In this document: one piece after another, positions 8,816-29,285 of the stretch | How the letters are laid out: every line of letters begins with the position of its first letter | How positions within the stretch are numbered: position 1 is the stretch's first letter | Source of the DNA: Paludibacter sp. 221 | GTDB taxonomy: Bacteria > Bacteroidota > Bacteroidia > Bacteroidales > Paludibacteraceae | Length of the DNA stretch: 64,000 nt | Direction of reading: 5' to 3' | Assembly (NCBI RefSeq): GCF_010501035.1 | Contig: NZ_QVMH01000001.1 | Coordinates: forward strand, 13,759-77,758 | Made by a program: the position numbers and the translations under genes | Notes under the pieces: generated by a model | Told to the model about the DNA's origin: nothing | Database searches by the model: none | The model's input: only the letters and a program-made list of their open reading frames with translations

Positions 8816-9485
8816 CTAATCAGAAAAACAGCAGATTTTCCAAGTCTCAAAATTTATCGATAGATTGAAATTTGTATATTATCCTGTCTATAAAAACTGC
8901 CAATTTTAAACCTTCCAATCTTTCAGCCGCGAATGTATAACATTCTGTTTGTCAATATACAATGTCGGTTTCTTATGCATTGAAAGGGTGCGTTTTGCGC
9001 CAAAGGCTTGCTGTTAAGAAGGCTATTTGAATAATTGCAGGACAAGTATGTTTTTTTATCTCTCAATGGTTTGTCGGAATTTACATTTGGCAAATCGGGG
9101 CAATTCGCACCGATTGCTTTCCGGTCAAATAAGCAATATATAGCAGAGTTACACATGTCAATCCGGCTTTGATATTGACCGGATATTATTAATTTTCTTC
9201 GTGGTCTGAAATATTAAAATGACAGACCGATGAATGAAGAAAATTATTTTAAGGCGACCTCCAATTTAAGTCGCGTTAGAGAATCCGGGCTTCTACGTTT
9301 TATGCCCCGGATAGTGTGTAATAGTTGCCACCGAAGCAAAAAACAAAGAGCCTCACGCCTCTTTATTTTTTTGTCGTCGTCAAAGGAGCAAGGTAATCGC
9401 ACGGGTAACCCGAAATTCGCCTGTGGCTCTTTCTTGTTCCTCCTGTGCATACCTTGCCCTGCGGGGCTGCGAACTCCTGCACCCG
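8816..9485. other. long intergenic region, nested inverted repeat at 9191-9245
   Basis: No convincing gene is seen here on either strand. The main structure is a nested inverted repeat: AATTTTCTTC (9191-9200) with GAAGAAAATT (9236-9245), inside which GGTCTG (9203-9208) pairs with CAGACC (9223-9228). Composition turns GC-rich after about 9400, unlike the flanks. Given its place between the divergent ParA operon and mob genes, it probably carries promoters and part of the transfer origin. Confidence 0.5.
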
Positions 9486-9665: not shown

Positions 9666-10016
9666 ATGGAAGATAAGAAAGAGGAGAAGCCCAAACGTGG
9701 TCGTCCGGCTAAGGAGAAAGAGAAGTTAAATCGCTCAATCAATCTCAAATTGACAGAGAAAGACTTCGGTTTAATCAAGGAGAAAGCGGAGAAAATAGGG
9801 ATGAAAGCGACACAATATGCACGGGAAATGGTGCTTAAAGGAGGTGTCAAATCCCGTTTTACATTGGAGGAACTTGACCTTATGCGAAAACTTTCAGGTA
9901 TAGCAAATAACCTGAACCAGATCGCAAAAAAAGCTAATCAGGCAGGATATATTGCGGAAAGCATTAATATAATGGGAATGATGATCAGAATTAAAAGGAT
10001 ACTGGATGATCGCTAA
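9666..10016 (+). CDS. MobC/BmgB-like relaxosome protein
   Basis: 116 residues. A lysine-rich start with an AT-hook-like RGRPAKEK is followed by a ribbon-helix-helix region (INLKLTEKDFGLIKEKAEK) and the LSGIANNLNQIAKKAN segment typical of MobC/plasmid mobilization relaxosome proteins. Such proteins bind oriT and help the relaxase nick. Its stop overlaps the relaxase start by 11 bases. Confidence 0.88.
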   Translation: MEDKKEEKPKRGRPAKEKEKLNRSINLKLTEKDFGLIKEKAEKIGMKATQYAREMVLKGGVKSRFTLEELDLMRKLSGIANNLNQIAKKANQAGYIAESINIMGMMIRIKRILDDR

Positions 10017-11268
10017 GAATATCAAGGGAAAGTCATTTAAGGGATGTGTATCATATGTGATGAACGATACTGCCAAGTTGCTTGAAGCTGAAGGTGTATT
10101 AGATTCAAGTAAACAGGATATTATCCGCAGTTTTGCCATACAACGTTCCGGCAGAAAGGAAATCAAGCAGCCTGTCGGACACATTCCATTGTCATTTGCT
10201 CCCGAAGATAAGGATAGAATGACGAATGATTTTATGGTACAATTAGCTAAGGAATACATGGAAGAAATGGGTATTAAAAACACCCAATATATCATTGCCC
10301 GGCATTACAACACCGACAATGAACACATTCATATTGTCTATAACCGAATCGACAATAACCTGAAATTAATATCAGTCAACCACGATTACAAACGGAATAT
10401 CAAGGTCTGTAAGAAACTAAAAGACAAACATGGATTGACTTATGGCAAGGACAAAGAAAGGGTTAAGCGAGAGAAATTAAGGAATCCGGATAAGGCAAAA
10501 TATTATATCCATGATGCGATTAAAACCGTTCTGCCGAATTGCAAAACACCTAATGACCTGCGATATAATCTTCAAAAATTCGGGATAGAGCTTGAGTACA
10601 AGCACAAACGAACAACATCTGAGATTGAGGGAGTATCATTCCGGTACGGAGATATAGCATTCAAAGGCTCTGAGGTAGATAGAAAATACAGCTTTGGAAA
10701 TCTGAAAGAGGAGTTCCAGAAAAATCTTTTGGAAGAAAACAAGCAAATAGAAGAAACATACTTGCGACAACAGGTGGAGCAAAGAACTAAACTAGAAACC
10801 GATGAAAAAGCTAAACAACAAACCCAAAGCAAGCCGAAACTTCCATCTATTGGTGGTACTGAATTGATGTCTGAGCAATGGCAAATATTAAAAGACGGTG
10901 GGCATGTTTATCTTGAAAACATGAATCGTAGCAATGGAGATGGTAAATTCTCCTCCTATGTTTTCCTTAACGACGAAAAGAGCAAAGCCTTTTTTAGCGA
11001 CAAGAATCCCGATGAGTTTGTCAAATACGGCAAATACGAAATGCGCATACGAGATAAGATACTCATAGAAAATGGCTATGTCACAAAAGCCAAAGTAAAA
11101 TGGTGGGGCATGGGAAGCTATGCAAACCCTTACTTGTGGAAAGAGAATAAAGTAGATGCCCAATATAAAGAATCGTGGAGTGATCCACGATTGCAGAAAA
11201 CTCAAAAGGAGGAGCAAAAGCCAAAGCAACCCATCGTTCAGAAGAAAAATAGAGGGCAAAAGAGGTAA
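10006..11268 (+). CDS. MobA/BmgA-like relaxase
   Basis: 420 residues. The relaxase/mobilization domain occupies the first 250 or so residues, with the metal-binding histidine motif in RHYNTDNEHIHIVYNRI (about residues 98-115). The C-terminal half is charged and helical. It should nick oriT and lead the transferred strand, using a helper element's coupling protein and secretion system, none of which is encoded here. It is translationally coupled to the MobC-like gene. Confidence 0.92.
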   Translation: MIAKNIKGKSFKGCVSYVMNDTAKLLEAEGVLDSSKQDIIRSFAIQRSGRKEIKQPVGHIPLSFAPEDKDRMTNDFMVQLAKEYMEEMGIKNTQYIIARHYNTDNEHIHIVYNRIDNNLKLISVNHDYKRNIKVCKKLKDKHGLTYGKDKERVKREKLRNPDKAKYYIHDAIKTVLPNCKTPNDLRYNLQKFGIELEYKHKRTTSEIEGVSFRYGDIAFKGSEVDRKYSFGNLKEEFQKNLLEENKQIEETYLRQQVEQRTKLETDEKAKQQTQSKPKLPSIGGTELMSEQWQILKDGGHVYLENMNRSNGDGKFSSYVFLNDEKSKAFFSDKNPDEFVKYGKYEMRIRDKILIENGYVTKAKVKWWGMGSYANPYLWKENKVDAQYKESWSDPRLQKTQKEEQKPKQPIVQKKNRGQKR

Positions 11269-11325: not shown

Positions 11326-12516
11326 ATGACTTCAGTAAAGATAAAATTTAGAAAATCAACTATAAAGAATAAGGAGGGAGTCCTCTATATTCAATTAATT
11401 CATAGCCGTGAAACTAAGCTTATTACGACAAGGTTTCGATTGCATTCTTTTGAGTGGGATAATCGTTCATCCACAGTAATAACAAATACCATAGACTCCG
11501 AAAGGATGTCTTACTTACAAAACATAAAAGACGGATTGGAATCAGAGGTCAGGCAGATTTATGATTTAATCTCCATACTTGAAAAACGAGGCGACTATAC
11601 CACTAAGGAACTGGTTGAATACTATGCCAATAACTCTTTTAATGGTTACTTCTTTCCTTTCATAAAATATCAAATCAAGGAGTTGAAATCTGAAAATCGA
11701 ACTAAAACCGCATCAATATATGAAACTGCAAGGAGAAGTTTTTCCCGCTTCCGGTATGGAGAAGATATTCGAATCGACAAGATAGACAGCTCATTGATGC
11801 AACGGTACGAAACTTATCTGAAAAATAATGGGGTCTCACAGAATAGTATTTCTTGCTATATGCGAGCATTGAGAGTTACATACAATCAGGCAGTACAAAA
11901 AGGTTTGACAATCTCAAAGAACCCATTTAAAGATGTTTATACAGGCATATACAAAACCTCTAAAAGAGCTGTAAATGAAGATATAATCACCAAGCTAATA
12001 AAACTTGACCTTTCAGAATATAGCCACTTACTATTAGCACGGGATCTTTTCACGTTTAGTTTTTACACACGAGGTATGTCCTTTGTCGATATGGCTAATC
12101 TCAAGCAAAGCAATCTAAAGAACGGTTATCTCGTCTACTGCCGTAGTAAAACCAAACAAGCCCTGAGTATCAAGGTAGAAAAATGTATTGAAGAAATAAT
12201 AGACCGATACAAAGAAATTGCTATTGATGACTATATTCTTCCTATATACACTTCTCAAAACCGAGATTATAACAGCCATTTACGAACTTACAACAAACGT
12301 CTCAAACGAATTTCGGAACTACTTAATCTGGAAAAGCCGTTGAGTTCATATGTCTCACGGCATTCTTGGGCAACGATAGCCCTACGCAAAGGGATTTCCG
12401 TACAAGTCATAAGTGAAGGAATGGGGCATGAAAACGAGAAGACAACCCGAATATACTTAGCTTCTTTGGATCAATCTGTTATAGACGATGCAAATTCCCA
12501 GATAATCGCACTATAA
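11326..12516 (+). CDS. invertase-type tyrosine recombinase
   Basis: 396 residues with an arm-type N-terminus, a SAM-like domain (about 105-195) and a catalytic domain. The active-site blocks are FYTRGMSFVDM, YVSRHSWAT and GMGHENEKTTRIYLA with the nucleophilic Tyr. The FYTRGMSFVDM signature is that of Bacteroides Tsr-type recombinases, many of which invert nearby DNA. The gene ends 15 bases before a 32-bp inverted repeat whose partner lies 315 bases further on, so promoter inversion is its probable job. A role in island integration cannot be excluded. Confidence 0.92.
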   Translation: MTSVKIKFRKSTIKNKEGVLYIQLIHSRETKLITTRFRLHSFEWDNRSSTVITNTIDSERMSYLQNIKDGLESEVRQIYDLISILEKRGDYTTKELVEYYANNSFNGYFFPFIKYQIKELKSENRTKTASIYETARRSFSRFRYGEDIRIDKIDSSLMQRYETYLKNNGVSQNSISCYMRALRVTYNQAVQKGLTISKNPFKDVYTGIYKTSKRAVNEDIITKLIKLDLSEYSHLLLARDLFTFSFYTRGMSFVDMANLKQSNLKNGYLVYCRSKTKQALSIKVEKCIEEIIDRYKEIAIDDYILPIYTSQNRDYNSHLRTYNKRLKRISELLNLEKPLSSYVSRHSWATIALRKGISVQVISEGMGHENEKTTRIYLASLDQSVIDDANSQIIAL

Positions 12517-12531
12517 ATACCGTCTAAAAAA

Positions 12532-12563
12532 GATACCACCTCTTGTTTAGAGGTGGTACTATA
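12532..12563 (+). repeat. left inverted repeat of invertible segment
   Basis: 32 bases, the reverse complement of 12879-12910 with a single mismatch. Each copy is itself a near-palindrome (TACCACCTC / GAGGTGGTA around TTGTTTA), as expected for a tyrosine recombinase core site. Similarity stops sharply at both ends. Confidence 0.85.
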
Positions 12564-12878
12564 CTAAAATTCGCGCACGCGCAAAGATACAAAAGTATTT
12601 CTAAAGAGGAAACAGAAAACGTTAAGTTTTTAACATATACCATATATGCACCCGTATTTTTCGATAATATCTCTGTATATCAGCATGTTTATATGAATGT
12701 TTGAAAAATATCTTTCCAATAACTTCCTAAGCAAGATAAGAAGCTGATAATGAGCGTCCTCTAAAACGACCTCACAAACCTTTCCTTCTTTGTTTGCAAA
12801 ATCGTTCGAAAAACTACTTACATATAATAAACCTAACGCTAAAATTGGCTTGTAACCAACATTATACAAGAAATATTA
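12564..12878. promoter_or_regulatory. predicted invertible promoter segment (OFF orientation)
   Basis: A 315-base gene-free segment bounded by inverted repeats. On the minus strand it holds TATCTTTG at 12589-12582, a perfect Bacteroidota -7 element with only a weak -33 about 20 bases upstream, and a GC-rich GCGCACGCGC just after it. In this copy transcription would run left, antisense into the recombinase gene. After inversion the -7 element would sit at about 12853-12860, pointing at the 13028 operon. I see no plus-strand promoter between the right repeat and 13028. Confidence 0.7.
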
Positions 12879-12910
12879 TATAGTACCACCTCTAAACAAG
12901 AAGTGGTATC
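12879..12910 (-). repeat. right inverted repeat of invertible segment
   Basis: Matches 12532-12563 in reverse complement at 31 of 32 positions (the difference is A at 12901). If the segment flips, this repeat becomes part of the 5' leader of the downstream operon and could fold as a hairpin there. Confidence 0.85.
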
Positions 12911-13027
12911 AATGAAAAATATAGCAAAGCCACGAAAATAAAATAACATAGGAAAAAGTGAAGATAAAGGGTTCGTCTTCATTTTTTAGTAACAGAACCC
13001 AAATGTTAAACAAATAAATAAATAATT

Positions 13028-13714
13028 ATGGGATTTTTTTTAGTAATTCTTATTGGTGTTGGTGCGTTTATCGCATTTAAGTTTTTAAAGGGGAATGATA
13101 CCCCATATGTAAAAGAACGAATTAAAGGGAGACCTGAGAATCAAAAAAAAGTTATCAGATACTTTTGTAATGATGATGGTTGCTTTTCAAGTAGGATGAA
13201 AGATGAAGAGTATGATGGCATGGTAAGATCAGTTTTAAATTCAATGGATTTTAGACAAAAAGCCCTTAATAAAATCGGTTTAGATGAAGATCAAGTAAAA
13301 GAAATAGATCCTGTTCATTTTGAGAACTATTTGTTTGGCAAAAAACATTTTGCTCGTTTTGGCAAAGACCATAAATGGCGTAGTTCTGCTTACCAAGTAA
13401 GTTGGCTTTTTTTTAGCGATACTCAAGTTTATTTGTATCAATATACATTTAACATGGACGAGGATGGAAAACAAGAGAAGACAGAAGAGTATTTCTATAA
13501 AGATATAACTAATTTTTCGGCATCTTCAGACACGGAGGAATCTCCAGTTTACGACCCTAAACAGAAAAAAGAAATACTGAAGAATATAGATTCTTGTCGT
13601 TTTGCAATTACAGTACCCGGTGATAAGCTCTGGTGTGCGATGGATCAGAATGATTATACCGAAAGAGCTATCCAAGCCATGAAAGCAAAATTAAGAGAAA
13701 AGAAAAATTCATAA
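13028..13714 (+). CDS. unknown protein with one membrane helix
   Basis: 228 residues. Residues 3-20 form one strongly hydrophobic helix, so the rest is probably cytoplasmic or, less likely, periplasmic. The centre (about 115-170, VSWLFFSDTQVYLYQYTFN) looks like a beta-rich, possibly pleckstrin-like domain; that is a guess. It is the first gene of the seven-gene operon that ends at 20483. Its leader contains no consensus promoter in this orientation. Composition is AT-rich, like the rest of the operon. Confidence 0.8.
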   Translation: MGFFLVILIGVGAFIAFKFLKGNDTPYVKERIKGRPENQKKVIRYFCNDDGCFSSRMKDEEYDGMVRSVLNSMDFRQKALNKIGLDEDQVKEIDPVHFENYLFGKKHFARFGKDHKWRSSAYQVSWLFFSDTQVYLYQYTFNMDEDGKQEKTEEYFYKDITNFSASSDTEESPVYDPKQKKEILKNIDSCRFAITVPGDKLWCAMDQNDYTERAIQAMKAKLREKKNS

Positions 13715-13718
13715 CGAT

Positions 13719-14225
13719 GTGGATGTTGTAAATATATTCAAATCAAGAAAGATAAAACACACCATCGTTGAAAGAACCCCTAGTGGATCAGAACAAAATG
13801 TTGCAAAATCATATTGTTTACATCGCCCTCTTTACAGACCTAAAACTAATATAAAAAAGGTCTTAATCTGGTTGTTTTGGTTTGAAGTAGGAATCATTCT
13901 AACCACTTTTGTACTAGGTTTTATTTTGAGATACTTCGGGGCTTCTTTCTCTTCTTTTTTTGGAAGGGATATATTTTATATATATAATCTTATTAGTCTA
14001 TTATTCCTAATGATATTTCTTAAACGAATACTTATTCTAATAATAGAATTATATCAGCATTATGCTCCTGAAGAAATGCGTAGGAAATGCCTTCTAATGC
14101 CAACTTGTTCTGAATACGCATTATTGGCATTGCAGAAGCATGGTGTAATTAAGGGACTATATAAGACCTACATCCGTTTAACAAAAAAATGCAAAGGAGA
14201 GACTTATTATATTGATTATCCATAG
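13719..14225 (+). CDS. membrane protein with YidD domain
   Basis: 168 residues starting at GTG, four bases after the previous stop; the ATG just upstream is in a closed frame. Two membrane helices lie at about residues 48-70 and 85-110. The C-terminus (from residue 120) carries the YidD signature: MPTCSEYALLAL, then KHGVIKG and RLTKKC with its cysteines. Ordinary YidD is a small peripheral protein that aids YidC-dependent membrane insertion. This version has membrane anchors and sits in an accessory operon, so it probably serves the operon's own membrane assembly. Confidence 0.8.
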   Translation: MDVVNIFKSRKIKHTIVERTPSGSEQNVAKSYCLHRPLYRPKTNIKKVLIWLFWFEVGIILTTFVLGFILRYFGASFSSFFGRDIFYIYNLISLLFLMIFLKRILILIIELYQHYAPEEMRRKCLLMPTCSEYALLALQKHGVIKGLYKTYIRLTKKCKGETYYIDYP

Positions 14226-14243
14226 ATTTATTTTTTAGAGAAC

Positions 14244-16913
14244 ATGGTGTCCACTACTTTATTGTCAAATAATGAAAGCATCGGTTTAGGAGTTATAGAA
14301 ATAGTTTCAATTCCTAGCATATCGATATTATCTAATAAATATTCTGATATACAATCCATGTCTATCGAATATAAAAAAGAAATGGGTAATTTGTTGGTGG
14401 AGGTTTACCAGTATTATAAAATGCTAAATATCACAAATGGATTACCCAATGATATTTCACTGGAAGTGCTGTGGACAACTCATTCAGTTTCTAACCAGCC
14501 ATATAAAGCGAATATAAAAATATTCTTATTGGTGCGGTCTATTGGAAATGACAATTATTCTGTTGAAAAAAATATAAACTCTATTTTGGAGATATGTAAA
14601 ACGACCTTGGATATACAAAAGTATGAGTATAAAACAATTTCTTATGAAGAGTTTGTGCCAATCATCAATAATATTGAAGACCAGTCTATTTGTGCAATAG
14701 TAAAAGAAGAAAGAATAGAAAATCTTCAAAATCAGATATTACCAGTTTGCTATTCTTTTGATCAAATACCTAATAGTGAGACAGATTTGAGTAAGATAGT
14801 CAACACATTGATTAATTATCCTAATTGTGCAATATCATTTCAATTAATACCAACATCTTATACTCTAAATGAAACGCAAGAGATTGACAGAATGACTCAA
14901 ATGCTTGATACTCTACACAAAGGTATCGCAGAGCAAGGAGTCGGAAATATAAGCTTCTCTTTAGCTGAAAAACAAGCTCAAATATATAAATATTATACAC
15001 AAAATAAAGGAAATGCTCTTTTCTATTTTAATATCTTAATTTATGGAGATGTAGATGCCGTATCAAATATATCAACTCGTGTTTATGGACAACTTAATGC
15101 ATCAACAATAAATAATGCAGGTCTAAAATTCATAAATTTATTACCCAATGAGGTAAATAAGGATGACAATTTCTATCCTCTTCCTTGGGCAATAAATGAA
15201 TTGCTATTAGGAGCAGAAAGAGAACATCATATATGGGATGGGGGACAAATCTCTGCCAATTATTACAAATTACCCTATATTATCACATTTGAAGAAGCTT
15301 CTGAATTTTTCAGACTCCCTTTTGGCAATGATAAAATATCTGCAGGGTTGGTTGTAAACGAATCTAGCAAGAGAGGTAAAACATATACCGATGATATAAT
15401 AAATTCAGGTGATATAGAAGTCGGAATGCTTAAATCCTCATCAAAAGGTGATAAAATAGGATTTTCTCTAAAAGATCTAGCTAAACATATGTTGATAGTT
15501 GGAACACCCGGATCGGGGAAAACAACTTTTTCTGTTAGCTTATTGGATCGTTTATGGAAGCAACACAATATCCCCTTTTTGGTTATTGAGCCTGCAAAGA
15601 ATGAATATCGGGCTCTAATTCAAAGCATTCCTGATTTGCAGGTGTTCACACCCGGAAAGAATTTCATTTCTCCATTCATATTTAATCCATTTATTCCCCC
15701 AAAAAATGTCAAACTAGAAACTTATAAGTCAACATTAAAAACAGCCTTTGCAGCTGCTGTTTCTATGTCTACACCACTTGATAAAATATTTGAAGAAGCA
15801 ATAAATAATTGTTATTCAGATTTCAGGTGGCTTGATTCTTACACTAGCGACGATAAAGGTGAAATTTTCAATATAACAGATTTCATTAAATGTTTCCAAC
15901 AAACATTTGATGAAATAGGTTATACAGGAGATGCTAAAAATATTGGCCGTGCAGGTATTGTTCGCTTAAATAGTTTAATAAATCTATTTGATAATTACTT
16001 TTCTATTCCTATTGAAGATCTATTACAAAAACCTACGATTATAGAGCTTGCAGCAATTGAAAACAGTGATCAAAAAGCATTGATTATTTCTCTCCTATTG
16101 TTATCCATTCTTGCCTATGTCAATGCAAATTATATCGGCGAAGGAGGTTTAAAGAATGTCATTTTATTGGAAGAGGCACATGTCCTTTTGGATGCAGACA
16201 CTAATGCAGGGCAAGGAGAAGCAAACCCAAGTGCAATCGCACAAGGACTTGTAAAAAGAATGCTTGCCGAAATTCGATCTTATGGTGTTGGGTTAATTGT
16301 TGCAGATCAATCGCCACGTAAAGTTTCTGTAGATGTTGTTGCCCTTACGGATATGAAACTAGCTTTTAGGTTGGTTGAGGCAACCGACAAACAAATTCTT
16401 GCTGATAGCACCAATATGTCAGATACGCAAGCACAGAGATTAGCCAAGTTAAAACCAGGAGAAGCATTTTTCTTTTTTAATAAGTTAGATGAACCAGAAG
16501 AAATTGTTACAGAAGATTATCGATTACAAAATAATATTAGCATTTCATTGTCAGATGAAGGAATAAAATCTTTGTCGACATATTGGAATGATAAGTCGGA
16601 TAAGCTATGTCCCTATCCAGAATGCCAACATGTGAGTTACTGTTCTACCAAATGTGATTATTCAAGGCGCATTTTGGCAAAAGAAATATCCCGAAGAATA
16701 TTTGTCCGAAATTTCAAACAAAACGATTCTAATTTCGATCCTGTAAAGAAAGTTTTTGGACAGATATCGAAAATGATTATAGTAGAGCTAAATGATGAAC
16801 CCTTCAATAAGGAATTACTATTATGTGTAAAAGCACAACTATGGCGGAAAATAAAGTACGGAACAAAAATTCCAGTAAGTGACACTCAGATACAAAAATC
16901 TTTAGAAAAATAA
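14244..16913 (+). CDS. HerA/DUF87-type ATPase
   Basis: 889 residues. The N-terminal 400 or so are of unrecognised fold. The ATPase domain has Walker A GTPGSGKT (residues 420-427), Walker B VILLEEAH (about 639-646) and a following IVADQSPR segment, as in HerA/FtsK/VirB4-class hexameric pumps. A cysteine cluster, CPYPECQHVSYCSTKC (about 788-803), suggests a zinc-binding tail. HerA relatives move DNA, and several anti-phage systems use one. No partner nuclease such as NurA, Sir2 or DUF4297 is present, so the substrate is unknown. Confidence 0.85.
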   Translation: MVSTTLLSNNESIGLGVIEIVSIPSISILSNKYSDIQSMSIEYKKEMGNLLVEVYQYYKMLNITNGLPNDISLEVLWTTHSVSNQPYKANIKIFLLVRSIGNDNYSVEKNINSILEICKTTLDIQKYEYKTISYEEFVPIINNIEDQSICAIVKEERIENLQNQILPVCYSFDQIPNSETDLSKIVNTLINYPNCAISFQLIPTSYTLNETQEIDRMTQMLDTLHKGIAEQGVGNISFSLAEKQAQIYKYYTQNKGNALFYFNILIYGDVDAVSNISTRVYGQLNASTINNAGLKFINLLPNEVNKDDNFYPLPWAINELLLGAEREHHIWDGGQISANYYKLPYIITFEEASEFFRLPFGNDKISAGLVVNESSKRGKTYTDDIINSGDIEVGMLKSSSKGDKIGFSLKDLAKHMLIVGTPGSGKTTFSVSLLDRLWKQHNIPFLVIEPAKNEYRALIQSIPDLQVFTPGKNFISPFIFNPFIPPKNVKLETYKSTLKTAFAAAVSMSTPLDKIFEEAINNCYSDFRWLDSYTSDDKGEIFNITDFIKCFQQTFDEIGYTGDAKNIGRAGIVRLNSLINLFDNYFSIPIEDLLQKPTIIELAAIENSDQKALIISLLLLSILAYVNANYIGEGGLKNVILLEEAHVLLDADTNAGQGEANPSAIAQGLVKRMLAEIRSYGVGLIVADQSPRKVSVDVVALTDMKLAFRLVEATDKQILADSTNMSDTQAQRLAKLKPGEAFFFFNKLDEPEEIVTEDYRLQNNISISLSDEGIKSLSTYWNDKSDKLCPYPECQHVSYCSTKCDYSRRILAKEISRRIFVRNFKQNDSNFDPVKKVFGQISKMIIVELNDEPFNKELLLCVKAQLWRKIKYGTKIPVSDTQIQKSLEK

Positions 16914-16916
16914 ACA

Positions 16917-18005
16917 ATGGACGAAGAATATAACGAATCAGAAGACACCTCTGACGTATCGTCGGATATGGACAGTTCCGATATTGAAACCTCGGATAAT
17001 AGTTTCGAAGATGGGGATATCCCTGAAGATACAGCAACCGAAGATTTTGAATCAGATGACACGTGGGATGACAGTGTCCTTTCTGAAGATACGGACGAAA
17101 TAGAAGAAGACGATAACTTTGACGAAGAAAACGGAGATGATGCTTCGGACGCTGAAGTTGAAGAAGATTTCGAAAACGATGATTTTGAAGAATCGCCGAC
17201 GGAAGACGTCGAGGAAGAAGAAATAACTGAAAATACAGAAACAGAAGAAACAGAGTCCGGAGAAGATTCTGAGAATGAAACAGAGGTTCCCGAAGATGAT
17301 GAATCCATAGTAGATTCGGAGGAAGAAAGTCAAGATGACACCAACAGCCAAAGTGATTTAGAAGAAGATGCTGACTCGGAAGAATCTAAGGAAACCAATG
17401 AAGATGAAGAAAATCCGGAGAGTAGGTCATTAAATGATATACTGGAAGATCCGAATGTTGACGACCAAACTAAAGATAAATTATCAGAATTGTCAGGAAG
17501 GAAACAAAGCAACGATAGTAACGGTGATGATGGAGAAACTGGAGATACTTCTCCGGAAGAACCTGATGGCGATGACGAAGGCAAAAAGGATTCTTTTATA
17601 AAACCCGATGACGACTACCAAAATGAAAGGGGATCACGACCATATTATGAAGAAGAAATTCCCGAAGAAGATGTAATAGAAGAGGAGGAAGAAACTTCTT
17701 TCAGCAATGAAAAAGATCACTCCTTGCGACATTTGGAGGAAGATCAGGAAAGGGAAAGAGAAGAAGAAGCAGAAGAGCAAAGGGCTGAAGAAGAATCTGA
17801 GAAACAAAGCGTTGAAGAGCAAGAAACTGAAGAACAGCAAAAAATAGAAGAAGAGCAGGAAGAAGAAAATACAAGAAACCAAGAGATCGAACGAATCAAC
17901 AGGCTGCGAGGCATTTCGTCCGAATCTGACACTCGTAACAAAAGTGATTCAAACAATCAAGATTCAAATTATAATCCTTACTATAACAGAGATAGGCAAC
18001 GATAG
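16917..18005 (+). CDS. extremely acidic, disordered protein
   Basis: 362 residues starting three bases after the ATPase stop. Residues 1-200 are dominated by Asp, Glu and Ser. About 245-325 is a Glu/Gln/Arg-rich stretch likely to form a single long helix or coiled coil. No signal peptide or membrane segment is seen. The function is unknown. Such acidity suits a DNA mimic, a protein-binding scaffold or a chaperone-like linker. It is placed between the ATPase and the SPFH protein, and may connect the two. Confidence 0.8.
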   Translation: MDEEYNESEDTSDVSSDMDSSDIETSDNSFEDGDIPEDTATEDFESDDTWDDSVLSEDTDEIEEDDNFDEENGDDASDAEVEEDFENDDFEESPTEDVEEEEITENTETEETESGEDSENETEVPEDDESIVDSEEESQDDTNSQSDLEEDADSEESKETNEDEENPESRSLNDILEDPNVDDQTKDKLSELSGRKQSNDSNGDDGETGDTSPEEPDGDDEGKKDSFIKPDDDYQNERGSRPYYEEEIPEEDVIEEEEETSFSNEKDHSLRHLEEDQEREREEEAEEQRAEEESEKQSVEEQETEEQQKIEEEQEEENTRNQEIERINRLRGISSESDTRNKSDSNNQDSNYNPYYNRDRQR

Positions 18006-18029
18006 TTATAAATTTAAAATTACAGCAAT

Positions 18030-19199
18030 ATGGGACTTTTCAATAAAAATCCGAATGAAGCAGATTACACTGGAGGTAAAAAGCATTGGGCTGATGTCAT
18101 TAAGAATTCCGGAGCAGGTGAACTTTTGATATGGAAGCAACCCGAAGAAGACTTTAATACCAATTCAACCCTGATCGTCATGCCTGGTGAGGAGGCCATC
18201 TTCATTAAGGACGGACGTGTAGAAACAGTTTCGGAAAACGGGAAATATAACTTAAAGACAGACAATTATCCTTTCATAAGCCGTATCAGAAATGCTTTTA
18301 CTGGAGGAATAAGCGTTTTCAACTGTGTAGTCTATTTCGTCAGGAAAGCACATAGCGCAGAAATAGGTTGGGGCACGCCTGCTCCGATTCAGGTCAGAGA
18401 TCCTTTATTAGGGATGATGACCAATGTGCAGGCTCATGGTTCATTTAAGATTAAAATAGATAACTCCGTAAAATTCCTGGAAAAACTATTGGGTAACAAT
18501 GTTTTCTTCGAAACCCAGGAAGGAATGAATAAATATTTTTTCAATCAATTTATTCAACACATTACCGATTCCATTCAAGAAGCAATCGAGAGTTCAGATG
18601 AAGAAATCACTCGTACTTTCAAGAAAAAAGCTTTTCTGGCTGAAAATGTTATTTGCCCTATCCTTCAAAAAATCGTCGACAATTACGGGTTGATATTAGA
18701 AGAATTCGTAATTTCTACATTGAGATTTGTTGATGATGAATTACGCCAGAATTATGAGATGCGAATTCAACAAATGAATTTAGATGCAAGAGAGAAAGTT
18801 ATAAATGCTCAAGCTGATAAGTCTGTTTTTGGCGTTTTAGGAGATGACTGGGGGCGCCAACAAGCTGCTAATATCTTGTCTGATGTAGCAAACAATCCAG
18901 GAGCAGGAGGTGTTGCTTCCGCTGGAGCTGGGTTAGGTATGGGAATGGCTGCCGGAGGTGTTTTTGGAGGAATGGCTCAGCAAATATTCAATCCAATGCA
19001 ACAACAGCCAGCACAACAGCAACCTGTTCAACAACCATCAGGACGATTTACGCAGAAAAATGAAAGCCAAAGTGAGAATGCCGCTTCAAGTGATAACCCT
19101 GTGGAGAAAATAAAACAATTGAAAGAAATGCTTGATATTGGTGCTATATCACAAGAAGAATTTGATACAAAGAAACAAGAAATACTTAATCGAATGTAA
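18030..19199 (+). CDS. YdjI-like SPFH protein with SHOCT tail
   Basis: 389 residues. An SPFH/band-7-type domain of the virion core protein/YdjI class occupies about 40-260. A Gly/Ala-rich and then Gln/Pro-rich linker (about 290-345) follows, with a C-terminal SHOCT motif (KIKQLKEMLDIGAISQEEFD). SPFH proteins form membrane-bound oligomeric platforms. In Bacillus subtilis YdjI acts with YdjG, YdjH and the PspA homologue YdjF in the membrane stress response. Here it would be the scaffold at the membrane, with the zinc-ribbon and four-TM proteins downstream as partners. Confidence 0.85.
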   Translation: MGLFNKNPNEADYTGGKKHWADVIKNSGAGELLIWKQPEEDFNTNSTLIVMPGEEAIFIKDGRVETVSENGKYNLKTDNYPFISRIRNAFTGGISVFNCVVYFVRKAHSAEIGWGTPAPIQVRDPLLGMMTNVQAHGSFKIKIDNSVKFLEKLLGNNVFFETQEGMNKYFFNQFIQHITDSIQEAIESSDEEITRTFKKKAFLAENVICPILQKIVDNYGLILEEFVISTLRFVDDELRQNYEMRIQQMNLDAREKVINAQADKSVFGVLGDDWGRQQAANILSDVANNPGAGGVASAGAGLGMGMAAGGVFGGMAQQIFNPMQQQPAQQQPVQQPSGRFTQKNESQSENAASSDNPVEKIKQLKEMLDIGAISQEEFDTKKQEILNRM

Positions 19200-19209
19200 G
19201 ATTAAAAAT

Positions 19210-19887
19210 ATGAAAACAACACTATGGATTATATTAGATGCTATTTTTTTGATAGTGTTTAATGTTTTATTCTTCTTGATTGGAGGAAGTGAACATCCAG
19301 CTTCGGTCTGGATTTCCTACGGGTTCATTCACTTTGCATACATAATGCTTTTACTCACACCATTATTTGTTCGCAAAGGGAGTGGGCAGGAAAATTATCG
19401 TCGCCCATTATTCGGAATATCCACTTCCTATTTTTTCCTCGAATTGGTAATCGGTGTCACTTTCATATTGATTGTTCCCGACAATTTTAAGTGGGCTTTG
19501 GCTATCCAGTTGATTCTGATGGCAGTATATATCATTTTAATGGTTGCCAATATGATAGCCAATGAGCATACTGCCGACAGCATCGAAAAGAGAGAGAATG
19601 AATTGAAATATATAAAAAATGCTTCTACTTCGCTAGATTCAATCATGAAGCAGCTTTCCGACAAAGAATTAAGAAGAAAAGTAGAAAAAGTATACGATCT
19701 CATTCATAGCAGTCCTACTCAGTCTTCTTATAGTGTATTTCAAATAGAGCAAGATGTTATAAATGAAATAGACAATCTTCAGGACGCTGTAATAAGTGGA
19801 GACGCTGATTCAATAACCCGAATTTCGAACAAAATATACAGGCTTGCAGAAAATAGAAACCGACAATTAAAGTTTAATAGTAAATAA
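19210..19887 (+). CDS. four-TM membrane protein
   Basis: 225 residues from ATG 19210; a longer frame from 19132 overlaps the SPFH gene and is unlikely. Four hydrophobic helices fill about residues 3-120, followed by a charged helical C-terminal region of about 100 residues predicted to be cytoplasmic. I recognise no family. The position resembles YdjH in the Bacillus ydj cluster, but I cannot claim homology. Confidence 0.8.
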   Translation: MKTTLWIILDAIFLIVFNVLFFLIGGSEHPASVWISYGFIHFAYIMLLLTPLFVRKGSGQENYRRPLFGISTSYFFLELVIGVTFILIVPDNFKWALAIQLILMAVYIILMVANMIANEHTADSIEKRENELKYIKNASTSLDSIMKQLSDKELRRKVEKVYDLIHSSPTQSSYSVFQIEQDVINEIDNLQDAVISGDADSITRISNKIYRLAENRNRQLKFNSK

Positions 19888-19889
19888 AT

Positions 19890-20483
19890 ATGGCTCATCA
19901 AGTAATCGAATTATCATGCCCCGGCTGTGGGGCGCGTGTAACTACCAATCAAAGTGAATGCATGTATTGCTACAAACCGATTATAATATCAACATTTAAT
20001 AGTGTATATTCTATGCCGATGCCTGAAGTAAATAAGTATGCAGGAGCGTATCGTAAAGCATTGACGGAAAACCCTGATGATCAAGACTTAAACGCGTCTA
20101 TTGCGATGTGCTACCTAAAGTTGAAGCTATATGATCAAGCTCTACCTGCTTTCGAAAAAGCAATAGAAGACAATTTTGATAATTCGGAGATCTTTTTTTA
20201 TGCCGCAGTAAGCTTGTTAAAAGGACAAAAAGCTTTTGTTTCACCTCGTCCGAATATTGATAAAATAATAGAATATTTGAATGCTGCAATAATGATTGAA
20301 CCTAAAGGTGTATACTACTATTTTTTATCATATATTAAATATGATTATTTCAGTCGAAAATATCTTAACATAACTCCAACATTTGAAGAAACGCTACAAT
20401 TAGCAAGAGAAAATGGGGTATCTGATTTTGATGTTGAACAACTATTTTTGATACTAAATGTGCAAAAGCCAGAATGTATGTAG
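19890..20483 (+). CDS. zinc-ribbon and TPR protein
   Basis: 197 residues, starting two bases after the previous stop. The zinc ribbon uses Cys10, Cys13, Cys24 and Cys27. Tetratricopeptide-like helices follow from about residue 50 (NASIAMCYLKLKLYDQALPA). Zinc-ribbon proteins of this type pair with YdjI-like SPFH proteins and probably bind them. It is the last gene of the operon; no strong terminator follows. Confidence 0.82.
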   Translation: MAHQVIELSCPGCGARVTTNQSECMYCYKPIIISTFNSVYSMPMPEVNKYAGAYRKALTENPDDQDLNASIAMCYLKLKLYDQALPAFEKAIEDNFDNSEIFFYAAVSLLKGQKAFVSPRPNIDKIIEYLNAAIMIEPKGVYYYFLSYIKYDYFSRKYLNITPTFEETLQLARENGVSDFDVEQLFLILNVQKPECM

Positions 20484-21007: not shown

Positions 21008-21061
21008 TGTCAAGTTTATAGTGCGATAAACTTGACATTGTAAAAAATGTTTGTATCTTTG
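21008..21061 (+). promoter_or_regulatory. promoter with palindromic operator for DUF6088 gene
   Basis: TGTCAAGTTTAT (21008-21019) and ATAAACTTGACA (21026-21037) form a perfect 12-bp inverted repeat around a six-base centre. The right arm contains the -33 TTGACA, and TATCTTTG follows at 21054-21061. A dimer bound to the repeat would cover the -33, as expected for autorepression. The start codon is only four bases beyond the -7, so the message is either leaderless or has another start site. Confidence 0.75.
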
Positions 21062-21065
21062 TAGC

Positions 21066-21791
21066 ATGTCATTAGCAAGTGAAATACGAACAAGGATAAA
21101 TAAATTCCCAGAGGGTAAAACCTTTGGTTACTCCGATTTACTCATTGCTAAAGAAGATTATGTTACAGCTGCAAAGGCATTGGAACGTCTGCAAAAAGAA
21201 GGTTTGATAAAAAAGATGTCCAAAGGTATTTTTTATAAGCCACAACAAACTGTTTTTGGAGAACTAAAGCCGGATTATACTGAGATGTTACGTCCTTATC
21301 TTTTCGAGAATGGGAGGCGAGTTGCATACGAAACCGGATATTCTCTTTATAACAGACTTAAGTTGACCACACAGGTAGCTTTTCGAATTAAAATTGCTAG
21401 CCGTGATAGGCGTATTTCGGTTAATAAAGGTGCATTGAAAATTGATACGGTGAAAAGCTACGTTGATGTGACAGATACCAATTACAAATTGTTGGAGTTG
21501 CTCGATGCCCTCAAGGATATAAAACGCATACCCGATGCTTCGACAGACAACAGTATTGTTATTTTAAGTAGTTTAATCAATAAACTGAGTGATAAGCAGA
21601 TTGCTGAAATGATAAAATATGCTTTGTCATATCCGCCACGAGTAAAAGCCCTACTGGGTGCTATCTTGGAAAATATTAACAATCAAGTAAGTACAAACAA
21701 ACTAAAACAGAGTCTTAATCCACTTACTAAGTTTGAATTGGGCATAAAGAAGTCTGTCCTACCAACCATTAACAACTGGAACATAGAATGA
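21066..21791 (+). CDS. DUF6088 / AbiEi-like antitoxin
   Basis: 241 residues. An N-terminal winged helix (FGYSDLLIAKEDYVTAAKAL, then GLIKKMSKGIFYK) and a C-terminal region match the AbiEi/DUF6088 antitoxin class. These proteins repress their own promoter and neutralise an AbiEii nucleotidyltransferase. I use ATG 21066; the upstream TTG lies inside the promoter. The usual toxin partner is not next to it. An AbiEii-like gene comes 1.1 kb later after an unrelated regulator, so it may be an orphan or may act on that toxin. Confidence 0.85.
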   Translation: MSLASEIRTRINKFPEGKTFGYSDLLIAKEDYVTAAKALERLQKEGLIKKMSKGIFYKPQQTVFGELKPDYTEMLRPYLFENGRRVAYETGYSLYNRLKLTTQVAFRIKIASRDRRISVNKGALKIDTVKSYVDVTDTNYKLLELLDALKDIKRIPDASTDNSIVILSSLINKLSDKQIAEMIKYALSYPPRVKALLGAILENINNQVSTNKLKQSLNPLTKFELGIKKSVLPTINNWNIE

Positions 21792-21850
21792 AACTGCACC
21801 TAAAGGGAATAAATTGAAAATAATTGTATTTTATTGTGTTTACCTCAGAT

Positions 21851-21909
21851 AATTACCTTATATTTGCAACAATTACCTGTTATGGGTAATTATGATAAAT
21901 TAAGGTAAT
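21851..21909 (+). promoter_or_regulatory. promoter and AATTACC operators for regulator gene
   Basis: TATATTTG at 21859-21866 is a good -7 element. AATTACC occurs at 21851-21857 and 21871-21877, and GGTAATT at 21885-21891 with a further GGTAAT at 21904-21909. The middle pair makes an inverted repeat just downstream of the promoter. Two such pairs flanking the start suggest autorepression by the winged-helix protein encoded next. Confidence 0.65.
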
Positions 21910-21913
21910 CGTG

Positions 21914-22882
21914 ATGAGTGATGTTCAAAAATATCTGCAAGACATACTTGGCTTATCTGGGACTATAAAGAAAGTGCCGGACATGCTGATTAAGAAACTT
22001 CCGTTATACTTGAGCCATACCTATAATTATCGCTTACTCGAATTGGAAGACCATTCTCTTTTGCTTGCAGAAGATGTTGACACAGCACCTAAAACTGTAA
22101 GTCAGCTAAAGAAGCAAGTAAAAACGATATATCAATATACAGAATTGCCTGTCGTTTTTGTGTTGAACAATCTAAGTCCACAAATGAGGTATAGGATGGT
22201 TAAAGAACGGCTCAATTTTATAGTACCTGAAAACCAAATATATCTGCCTGATTTACTTATTTATCTGAAAGAGAATAAGCCGCAAACCTATTCGTTCCCG
22301 GAACAGTTAAGCCCTGCGGCTCAAATGTTATTGCTCTATCATTTACAGGTGGAGCATTTAGAAGAATTCTCATTTAAAGAAATCGCAGAGAAGCTAAATT
22401 ACTCGCCTAAAACAATAACAAAGATTGTATCAGAACTGAAAGCAAAAAAGTTATGCAAAACCACAGGAACAAAAGAAAAACGAGTTGCTTTTGAGGTTGA
22501 TAGGAAACTATTATGGCAGATAGCTGAACCTCAAATGCAATCGCCGATTATTAAGTCCTATTTTACAAACGTAAAAGAGAGTCTGGCTTTTTGCAAATCG
22601 GGAGATATAGCTTTAGCTCATTACACTTTTTTGACAGATACTAAAAAGGAAATGTATGCCGTCTATAAGAATGAATTTGAAGAGTTAAGGAAAAACGATT
22701 TTTGGGAGTATTTAGATGAAACGGAAGGAAATATGCAGGTTGAAGTATGGAAATACAATCCTCGCTTATTAAGTGATAATGGATATATAGATCCTCTATC
22801 TTTATATCTGTGTTATCGGGAAGATTCAAATGAGCGTGTGGAAGCTGAATTAAAAGAACTAATAAACAAAGAAAAATGGTAA
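21914..22882 (+). CDS. winged-helix regulator, antitoxin-like
   Basis: 322 residues. The centre (about 140-200, FKEIAEKLNYSPKTITKIVSELKAKKLC) is a MarR-like winged helix, with a C-terminal domain of unknown fold. It overlaps the nucleotidyltransferase gene by seven bases, so the two are coupled, and its own operator region is repetitive. These points fit an antitoxin-type regulator for the next gene. The first codon could instead be GTG 21911. Confidence 0.75.
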   Translation: MSDVQKYLQDILGLSGTIKKVPDMLIKKLPLYLSHTYNYRLLELEDHSLLLAEDVDTAPKTVSQLKKQVKTIYQYTELPVVFVLNNLSPQMRYRMVKERLNFIVPENQIYLPDLLIYLKENKPQTYSFPEQLSPAAQMLLLYHLQVEHLEEFSFKEIAEKLNYSPKTITKIVSELKAKKLCKTTGTKEKRVAFEVDRKLLWQIAEPQMQSPIIKSYFTNVKESLAFCKSGDIALAHYTFLTDTKKEMYAVYKNEFEELRKNDFWEYLDETEGNMQVEVWKYNPRLLSDNGYIDPLSLYLCYREDSNERVEAELKELINKEKW

Positions 22883-23646
22883 GAGGATTAGATATATTTC
22901 GGGAGTATTTCAAGGGGTATGCAGGCAATTATGTGATTATTGGCGGAACTGCATGCAGTGAACTTATCGAAGATGAAGGCCTGAAACCACGAGCAACAAA
23001 GGATATTGATGCGATTCTGATTGTGGAAGCATTAAGTGATGAATTTGTTAAACGATTCTGGGAGTTTATTAGAGCCGGAGAATATGAGTTGTGGCAAACC
23101 ATATCTGAAAAGACACAATTCTACCGGTTTATTAAACCTAAATCAGAAGGTTTTCCTTTACAAATTGAACTCTTTTCAAGAGTACCAGATCTGATTAAAG
23201 TGCCGGAAGGCTCGCATTTGACTCCAATTCCTGTCGGAGAAGATTTATCAAGTCTTTCTGCTATCCTTTTGGATGATGACTATTACCACTATGCAACATC
23301 TCATACGGTAGTTTTAGATGATCTAAATTTCGTGGATAAAGATGCCATTGTTGTACTTAAGGCAATAGCATATATTAATAACTCGAAGCGTAAAGCAGGA
23401 GGTGAGTCGGTAAGATCGGAGGATATTACAAAACACAAAAACGATATTTTTCGTATTACCTCAACCTTTACCGGAAGTGACAGATATGAAATCCCGGAAG
23501 TTATAAAGAATGATTTAAGGACATTTCTTGAAATGATAAAAGAAGATGGTTTGGGAACAACCGGGTTATCCAAAGAATTAGGACTTGGAGCAGAAATTAC
23601 CATTGATGAGTTTACTACTCAATTAAAGACTGTGTTTGGATTATGA
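22876..23646 (+). CDS. AbiEii-like nucleotidyltransferase toxin
   Basis: 256 residues. The nucleotidyltransferase core shows VIIGGTACSEL near residue 20 and ATKDIDAIL near residue 43, the GG and DxD-type motifs of the AbiEii/DNA polymerase beta-like fold. AbiEii-type toxins modify tRNA or other targets with nucleotides and can cause abortive infection. It is coupled to the upstream regulator by overlap and to the phosphoesterase by a four-base overlap. The substrate cannot be told from sequence. Confidence 0.78.
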   Translation: MVRGLDIFREYFKGYAGNYVIIGGTACSELIEDEGLKPRATKDIDAILIVEALSDEFVKRFWEFIRAGEYELWQTISEKTQFYRFIKPKSEGFPLQIELFSRVPDLIKVPEGSHLTPIPVGEDLSSLSAILLDDDYYHYATSHTVVLDDLNFVDKDAIVVLKAIAYINNSKRKAGGESVRSEDITKHKNDIFRITSTFTGSDRYEIPEVIKNDLRTFLEMIKEDGLGTTGLSKELGLGAEITIDEFTTQLKTVFGL

Positions 23647-27293: not shown

Positions 27294-29285
27294 ATGCAGT
27301 ACTTTAATAATATACTTTGCTTTGAGGCTGGTTGGTTGGTTGATAATGAGATATGTACTTTTAGTATATACAAGCATGCCATAGAGCGCAAACAAATACA
27401 GGTTGTACGCCGTGCGAGCCGGGGTACTCCGGCACTGGTGGCTTATGATAGTTTGCCCGACCGATTTAAGGCAGCAATAGTGGAAAAAATGGGCGGCGAC
27501 CCCTATAAAATGGCTAAACAAAACATTTTAGAGGGTTTGATAGAGCACAACACTGAGGCGAGTGTGTTTTTTGAGGGTTACAAGCTAAGCGACGGGCGGT
27601 ACCTGCCTATAAAAACGCGCCGCGAATACTATGCAAATGCTATTGTTCTGGACGCTATTGGGGTGTTTATCGCTACACAGGTGGTACCACGCAAGGCAAA
27701 AGGGCAAAAAACGGGCGGTGCGTGGAAGTACATAAGCGAGGCGGTGCAAAGCCTCGACCGCACGCAGTACCCGCACACCTTGCCCGAAAACTCGGAGTCT
27801 CTACAACGCAAATATGACAAATACAAGGCTGAAAGCTACACAGGGCTAATACACGCTAATTTTCTGAAAGGTATAAGAAACGCGGCAAGCATAAACGACA
27901 AAGTAAAAGAGAGCCTTGTAATCGAATTGCTTGCCGACCCGCGCAACCTGGATAATGAGCAAGTGGCACGCTTGTATAACCAAATAGCCGAGCCGATGGG
28001 CTGGCGTAAGATAACAGGCGCAACGGTGGCAAACTGGCGCGACCGCTACGAAATGGAGATATACGCCGGTAGGCGTGGTTCGGTTGCTTTCTCAAACAAA
28101 AAGGCTATGCAGGTGAAGCGCTCAGCTCCCACAAGCCCGCTTTTTTACTGGACGCTCGACGGCTGGGATGTAGAATTGCTCTACCAAAAACACAACGGTA
28201 AAACAATAACCTACCATAACCGCCCCACGGTGGTTGTAGTGCTCGACCCTTGTTGTAAATATCCTATAGGCTATGCGGTAGGCACGCACGAAACGCCGGA
28301 ATTGATAAAAGCGGCTTTGCGCAACGCGGCGCAACATACCGCCCGGCTATTCGGCTCGATGTACCGAGCCCATCAAATACAATCAGACAGATACGCCTAC
28401 AATACCTTAGAGCCGCTTTATGCAGCTATGGGTAAGCACGTAACGCCAGCCCGTGCAAAGAACGCTAAGGCAAAGGTTATTGAGCCGTATTTTGGGTATA
28501 TCAATAAAACATACTGCCAAACGCAGCCTAACTGGTCGGGCTTTGGTATTACCTCCGGCAAAGACAAACAGCCAAACAGCGAATTTCTGAATAAATATAA
28601 AACGCATTTTCCCGACTTCGCGGGCGTGTGCGAGCAAGTGGAGCTCGTTATCGAAATGGAGCGTCAAAAGAAACGCGACGAATACCTGGAGCTTTGGAGC
28701 AAAACCGCTGAGGCTGACAAAATACCATTGTCGTACGAAAGCTATTTGTATCATTTTGGCGAAAGTACAGGCTATAAAAATATGTTGCAGGGCGACGGTA
28801 TGAATGTTACAATACGGGGTATTAAGCAGCATTTTGATTGTTTCGACCTGAATTTTCGCAAACACGCCTCGGTGCAATGGGCGGTACTGTTTGACCCTGA
28901 CGACACTACGCGCATACTGGCTATAAATGACGACGGTACACTCCGTTTTATACTGGAGAAAAAGCATGTACAGCCTATGGCGCTGAAAGACCGCCAGGCG
29001 GGCGACGGCGAGGCGCTGAGCCGCGTAAACCAGTTTAATTGTGAAATGGTGGAGTATGTAACCGATTTCAGAGCCGATACAGGCGAAACGGTGCGCGACT
29101 TCCTACAGGAGCGCGAGAGACAACTAAGCGGCACGCTTGCCCGCCTGATGCTGACTGACAGCCGGGGGCAACACAAAGATAACCGCAATATCGACGCGGG
29201 CAGAAAGCCTAAGGTAAGCCCCACCGAGATAATAAACAAAAAAACTGAAAAACAAAAAGTAGAAACGATATACGATTTAATGTAA
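27294..29285 (+). CDS. Mu A-type DDE transposase
   Basis: 663 residues, the same length as MuA. It binds the phage ends and performs integration and replicative transposition. The catalytic triad is Asp289 (in TLDGWD), Asp365 (in QSDRYA) and Glu397 (in VIEPYFG), inside an RNase H-like core. A Mu-type beta-barrel domain and a C-terminal MuB-interacting tail follow. The N-terminal region contains DNA-binding winged-helix-like segments. MuB-like ATPase lies directly downstream, as in Mu. Confidence 0.92.
   Translation: MQYFNNILCFEAGWLVDNEICTFSIYKHAIERKQIQVVRRASRGTPALVAYDSLPDRFKAAIVEKMGGDPYKMAKQNILEGLIEHNTEASVFFEGYKLSDGRYLPIKTRREYYANAIVLDAIGVFIATQVVPRKAKGQKTGGAWKYISEAVQSLDRTQYPHTLPENSESLQRKYDKYKAESYTGLIHANFLKGIRNAASINDKVKESLVIELLADPRNLDNEQVARLYNQIAEPMGWRKITGATVANWRDRYEMEIYAGRRGSVAFSNKKAMQVKRSAPTSPLFYWTLDGWDVELLYQKHNGKTITYHNRPTVVVVLDPCCKYPIGYAVGTHETPELIKAALRNAAQHTARLFGSMYRAHQIQSDRYAYNTLEPLYAAMGKHVTPARAKNAKAKVIEPYFGYINKTYCQTQPNWSGFGITSGKDKQPNSEFLNKYKTHFPDFAGVCEQVELVIEMERQKKRDEYLELWSKTAEADKIPLSYESYLYHFGESTGYKNMLQGDGMNVTIRGIKQHFDCFDLNFRKHASVQWAVLFDPDDTTRILAINDDGTLRFILEKKHVQPMALKDRQAGDGEALSRVNQFNCEMVEYVTDFRADTGETVRDFLQERERQLSGTLARLMLTDSRGQHKDNRNIDAGRKPKVSPTEIINKKTEKQKVETIYDLM

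Follow-up and report, generated by a model that had tools for sequence, protein, structure and literature searches.

In Bacteroides fragilis, the capsule promoters are controlled ON and OFF by inversion, and the recombinase involved, Mpi, is a serine recombinase that acts on many distant sites. The wider class of such invertons has been profiled (PMC11892184). The tyrosine recombinase of the plasmid pMMCAT has been assigned to a clade of invertases that act on invertible promoters, in work that also describes a method testing for reads in both orientations (PMC8748976). Since this pMMCAT enzyme stands among known invertases, the general class of switch is already known; the HerA–SPFH operon as its target is new. 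That operon lies in Paludibacter sp. 221, within the 64-kb window (the whole stretch of DNA that was analysed), where sequence comparison makes it very probable that positions 12532–12910 form a portable phase-variation cassette, that is, a recombinase-inverted promoter of the genes at 13028–20483, currently OFF. The elements of the putative cassette and its 5′ neighbours are:

9666–11268, plus strand: mobC-like and relaxase mobA/mobB genes, directly 5′ of the recombinase
11326–12516, plus strand: tyrosine recombinase of 396 aa, a predicted DNA invertase (Pfam domains and catalytic positions)
12532–12563, plus strand: left arm, a putative recombination site, GATACCACCTCTTGTTTAGAGGTGGTACTATA, with a near-palindromic core and a 5-bp asymmetric centre
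12533–12559, minus strand: left-arm hairpin resembling a terminator, with a CTTTTTT tail (terminator-like site search)
12564–12878, unstranded: putative invertible segment of 315 bp without a conserved gene, with homology throughout to the segment at locus L105
12582–12589, minus strand: −7 box TATCTTTG of a predicted Bacteroidota promoter, pointing left (OFF; exact TAnnTTTG search)
12879–12910, minus strand: right arm, a putative recombination site with one mismatch, CTTCT for CCTCT

The sequence-only reading had described 32-bp repeats matching at 31 positions, 315 bases apart and 15 bases past the recombinase, and the coordinates bear this out: the arms are identical in 31 of 32 bases, enclose 315 bp, and begin 15 bases beyond the recombinase end at 12516. 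They can be extended to 41 nt at 88% identity. Both arms are near-palindromic in themselves, TACCACCTCT-TGTTT-AGAGGTGGTA, and a near-palindrome with an asymmetric centre is the typical look of a tyrosine-recombinase core site. The arm core had no chance match in 100 shuffles, and the 64-kb window has no second pair of inverted repeats that scores comparably (arms of 18 nt or more, at most 1.5 kb apart). The description of the segment as gene-free also holds: its longest open frame, 79 codons from a TTG start, was considered as a hidden gene and rejected, because L105, the closest relative, has a homologous segment in which this frame is not conserved. The arrangement is thus that of an inverton, with inverted repeats of 10–40 nt flanking a short segment without a gene. 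A search with the segment in both forms returned no near-identical copy in 199 relative genomes, plasmids or viral contigs, and matches outside the window's own genome spanned 25–65 bases only; the inverted form of the 12532–12910 locus was therefore not seen in the collections searched.

The promoter box gives the segment its direction. As had been read, a perfect box, TATCTTTG, lies inside the segment on the minus strand at 12589–12582; because it points left, away from the operon, the present copy appears to be OFF. Its −33 element, TTTC, carries one mismatch to the consensus TTTG at a spacing of 19; a second box, TACTTTTG, adjoins it at 12597–12590, and in L105 the TATCTTTG box is conserved as CAAAGATA. 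Upon inversion, the box would occupy 12853–12860 on the plus strand, 167 bases before 13028, close to the earlier estimate of about 170. By sequence match, the promoter thus faces outward in one orientation toward a target gene on the matching strand. Across the whole window, both strands together hold 18 exact boxes with a −33 element within one mismatch. Directly past the −7 box, at 12572–12582, lies a GC-rich alternating stretch, CGCGCACGCGC, unusual in this AT-rich segment and possibly an operator. Terminator-like sites number three in the region, against a shuffle mean of 0.3.

These elements suggest a mechanism in which the recombinase encoded at 11326–12516 would bind both inverted near-palindromic sites and carry out recombination within the asymmetric centres, so that 12532–12910 would be inverted reversibly. 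In the present orientation, the promoter would fire left toward the terminator-like hairpin, leaving the operon OFF, and the left-arm hairpin with its CTTTTTT tail would stop leftward transcription, shielding the recombinase gene from antisense. In the inverted orientation, the promoter would read rightward through the right arm into 13028–20483 (ON), and the transcript would have a 5′ leader about 160 nt long. The hairpin of the right arm, on the plus strand, is weaker and has no T-tract, so that transcription after inversion could pass into 13028.

The recombinase itself matches Phage_int_SAM_5 (1.5e-21), Phage_integrase (2.6e-14) and Arm-DNA-bind_5 (8.5e-5) in Pfam. Its catalytic positions can be located by eye, namely Arg (TRGMS), Arg (SRHSWA), His (GHENE) and Tyr (RIYLAS), and in the HxxR box a Tyr replaces the first His (SYVSRH), likewise in the homologues inspected. 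None of the NCBI Xer or integrase equivalog models scored above its curated cutoff, the best being XerC at 57.7 bits versus 335.

The search for relatives of this enzyme covered 358 genomes from the family and 393 from the order, and the DNA 3′ of each gene was read. Many recombinases 39–72% identical to it have repeats just past the stop codon, most with a CTCT-N5-AGAG-like core, and recombinase identity correlates with repeat similarity (Mantel r 0.585; none of 2000 permutations as high). The repeats most like those of the window, by far, accompany the two closest recombinases, L105 (73% identical, score 24) and L070 (score 17; 66% identity over its surviving part). The locus thus has an adjacent putative invertase whose relatives share its site type. 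An outward TAnnTTTG sits 30–60 bp from one end in 29 of 37 repeat-bounded segments, where 500 first-order resamplings averaged 1.8 such segments and never exceeded 7. With the box limit set at 75 bp, 24 segments point toward the recombinase (OFF), seven toward the downstream genes (ON) and six have no box, although the 37 are not all independent, some loci being close relatives and pMMCAT being counted more than once. Some homologues, such as L063, L065, L069 and L074, have no repeats past the recombinase gene; together with the six box-less segments, this makes the arrangement common, not universal. Several homologue contigs stop 36–160 bases past the recombinase, which is expected if mixed orientations break assemblies and may reflect just that, other causes being possible.

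Direct views of inversion come from these homologues. The inverted form of the 216-bp pMMCAT segment was built and used as a query, and NZ_CP072238.1 was found to carry the segment in inverted form versus 17 sister plasmids in the other form, the inverted stretch being 100% identical between isolates. The ON form is that of pMMCAT of B. uniformis CL06T06C18, and the 17 sister plasmids are OFF. The pMMCAT recombinase is 47% identical to that of the window, with a UpxY polysaccharide operon directly downstream in the annotated region. In a second case, L130 and L143 of one genus differ by inversion of the promoter part between collinear flanks. The central claim of the sequence-only reading, a phase-variable promoter for the HerA–SPFH operon, thereby gains support from homologues with the same arrangement, from their occurrence in both orientations and from the exact pMMCAT inversion. 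On this reading, the Paludibacter copy would itself flip, its box would be the main promoter of the operon, and the switch would be used in the host. As a separate observation, two adjacent segments, each bounded by different repeats, lie behind the one recombinase of pMMCAT (L048, 4357–4942), and in the L104 plasmid the second segment is inverted and the first unchanged.

What stands behind related recombinases varies widely. UpxY polysaccharide operons are found at L048, L062, L068, L108, L126, L130, L142 and L143; type IIG and Eco57I-type restriction-modification at L110 (near copies L116 and L120) and L061; HKD-Snf2 helicases at L059 and L114; a ThiF/JAB operon at L066; a kinase-FHA-phosphatase operon at L070; and, by inspection, lipoprotein or surface-type operons at L112, L115 and L118. 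The cargo of L105 is a TerD/von Willebrand-domain stress operon (8861–9466 and neighbouring genes). At L131 (2210–4591, minus strand), the operon behind a related recombinase and its repeats encodes another PF13421 SPFH protein, with a GYF_2 domain, and a zinc-ribbon protein, so that SPFH operons stand behind such a cassette at least twice. Because these operons are unrelated to one another, recombinase and promoter together appear to constitute a portable ON/OFF cassette, one type of which fronts surface, restriction, stress and conflict operons alike.

In Paludibacter sp. 221, the cassette is followed by an operon of seven genes:

13028–13714, plus strand: operon gene 1, 228 aa, a membrane helix and a beta-rich domain (model pLDDT 86)
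13719–14225, plus strand: YidD-family membrane protein (PF01809, 9.8e-15)
14244–16913, plus strand: HerA/FtsK-type pumping ATPase, 889 aa (PF01935, 1.3e-13; PADLOC mad8/HerA)
16917–18005, plus strand: Asp/Glu-rich low-complexity protein, positionally conserved
18030–19199, plus strand: SPFH (Band_7_1) protein with a SHOCT tail (PF13421, 2.2e-28)
19132–19887, plus strand: membrane protein, true start probably near 19213 (open reading frame)
19890–20483, plus strand: zinc-ribbon TPR protein, with which the conserved set ends (TPR families; 50–72% identical in relatives)

The structural model of the gene 1 product had no significant match in the PDB (best a PH domain, E 0.066), and the SPFH protein matched no PDB sequence. 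Just past the gene 1 start codon, slippage may occur at a run of eight T (13033–13040), which could vary expression at a second level. The HerA ATPase is 64–80% identical to proteins of Azobacteroides and Firmicutes; a close version (80%) occurs in only one other genome of the order sample, and in Firmicutes (64–69%) it belongs to much the same gene set, near integrases or relaxases at L027, L029 and L030. No switch recombinase was found beside the HerA operons of other species, and no repeats lie upstream at the five Firmicutes loci examined. This distribution marks the operon as rare mobile cargo, and the switch was either gained in the Paludibacter sp. 221 lineage or lost elsewhere.

The same distribution implies that the operon can run from a fixed promoter, as the HerA operons of Azobacteroides and Firmicutes, free of recombinase and upstream repeats, would have to do. 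Conceivably, then, the segment inverts in front of a fixed weak promoter past 12910, and inversion raises expression rather than switching it on and off. This is unlikely, as the plus strand has no exact TAnnTTTG from 12350 to 13060 and none with an acceptable −33 element inside the HerA operon. The earlier statement that no other promoter is visible stands for the TAnnTTTG consensus, and for that consensus only. A less probable alternative is a switch that was formerly active and has since become locked, by decay of the right arm or by an inactive recombinase. The one arm mismatch and the single known orientation would fit, but the mismatch falls in the outer half, where no exchange takes place, mismatches of this kind recur in the homologues L062, L070 and L142, and the recombinase reading frame is intact.

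Least probable of all is that the recombinase is the integrase of a mobilizable element, with the repeats serving as attachment or arm sites or as terminators. The mobC–mobA genes directly upstream (mob genes also lie near the recombinases of L060, L110, L114, L116, L117 and L120), the N-terminal arm-binding domain as in integrases and the terminator-like left arm on the minus strand speak for it. Against it, recombinase and repeats stay linked beside unrelated operons, where the promoter is found in either orientation, a homologue has undergone exact inversion, the closest homologue L105 retains the segment in front of different downstream genes, and inverted sites yield inversion, not excision. 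An invertible promoter cassette, now OFF, thus remains the preferred reading.

As to what is switched, the operon is presumably an ON/OFF accessory module, for stress or conflict, that is costly when expressed; a widely transferred, little-studied operon under such a switch suggests that its expression is useful only sometimes. PADLOC matches the ATPase alone to HerA/mad8 models and the other operon proteins to none save a marginal TPR match. A known HerA anti-phage system, with a nuclease or SIR2-type partner or of the MADS type, was considered and rejected, there being no partner effector or complete MADS gene set. Literature searches found no paper on a HerA–SPFH operon and none joining invertons with anti-phage defence. 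Tentatively, the HerA-YidD-SPFH-TPR operon might be a mobile system for conflict or envelope defence that has not been described before. Bacteroidales would then have placed it, like the TerD, ThiF/JAB, type IIG restriction and helicase systems, behind a portable cassette with an invertible promoter, such that only part of the population pays the cost. Elsewhere in the window, AbiE-type genes occupy 21051–23646, with AbiEi at 21051 (PADLOC 1e-51), a probable AbiEii-like nucleotidyltransferase recognized by eye at 22876 and, between them at 21911, a winged-helix protein with weak CasR/CARF-type matches. A Mu-like prophage spans 26652 to about 58000, with a transposase at 27294 and terminase, portal, tail sheath and tape-measure genes.

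Among systems already described, the pMMCAT exopolysaccharide locus shares with the window repeats past the recombinase stop codon, an outward TAnnTTTG at a distance of about 40 bp from one of them and a target operon downstream on the same strand. It differs in its target, a polysaccharide operon with UpxY, in its repeat sequence and in having two repeat-bounded segments versus one. L105, in the Bacteroidales genome G467, is closer still, with a recombinase 72–73% identical, nearly the same repeat, the TATCTTTG box in its OFF orientation and a homologous 370-bp segment; unlike the window, it has the TerD/von Willebrand-domain operon in place of HerA–SPFH. The B. fragilis Mpi capsule-promoter invertons resemble the window in using promoter inversion as ON/OFF control, whereas the window has one tyrosine recombinase and one adjacent segment. 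On the side of the cargo, the Bacillus subtilis pspA-ydjGHI operon (PMC8581546) is alike by gene content in that an SPFH protein is encoded with membrane partners; it differs from the window in being under sigma-W control and in its lack of a HerA ATPase or YidD (PMC8581546).
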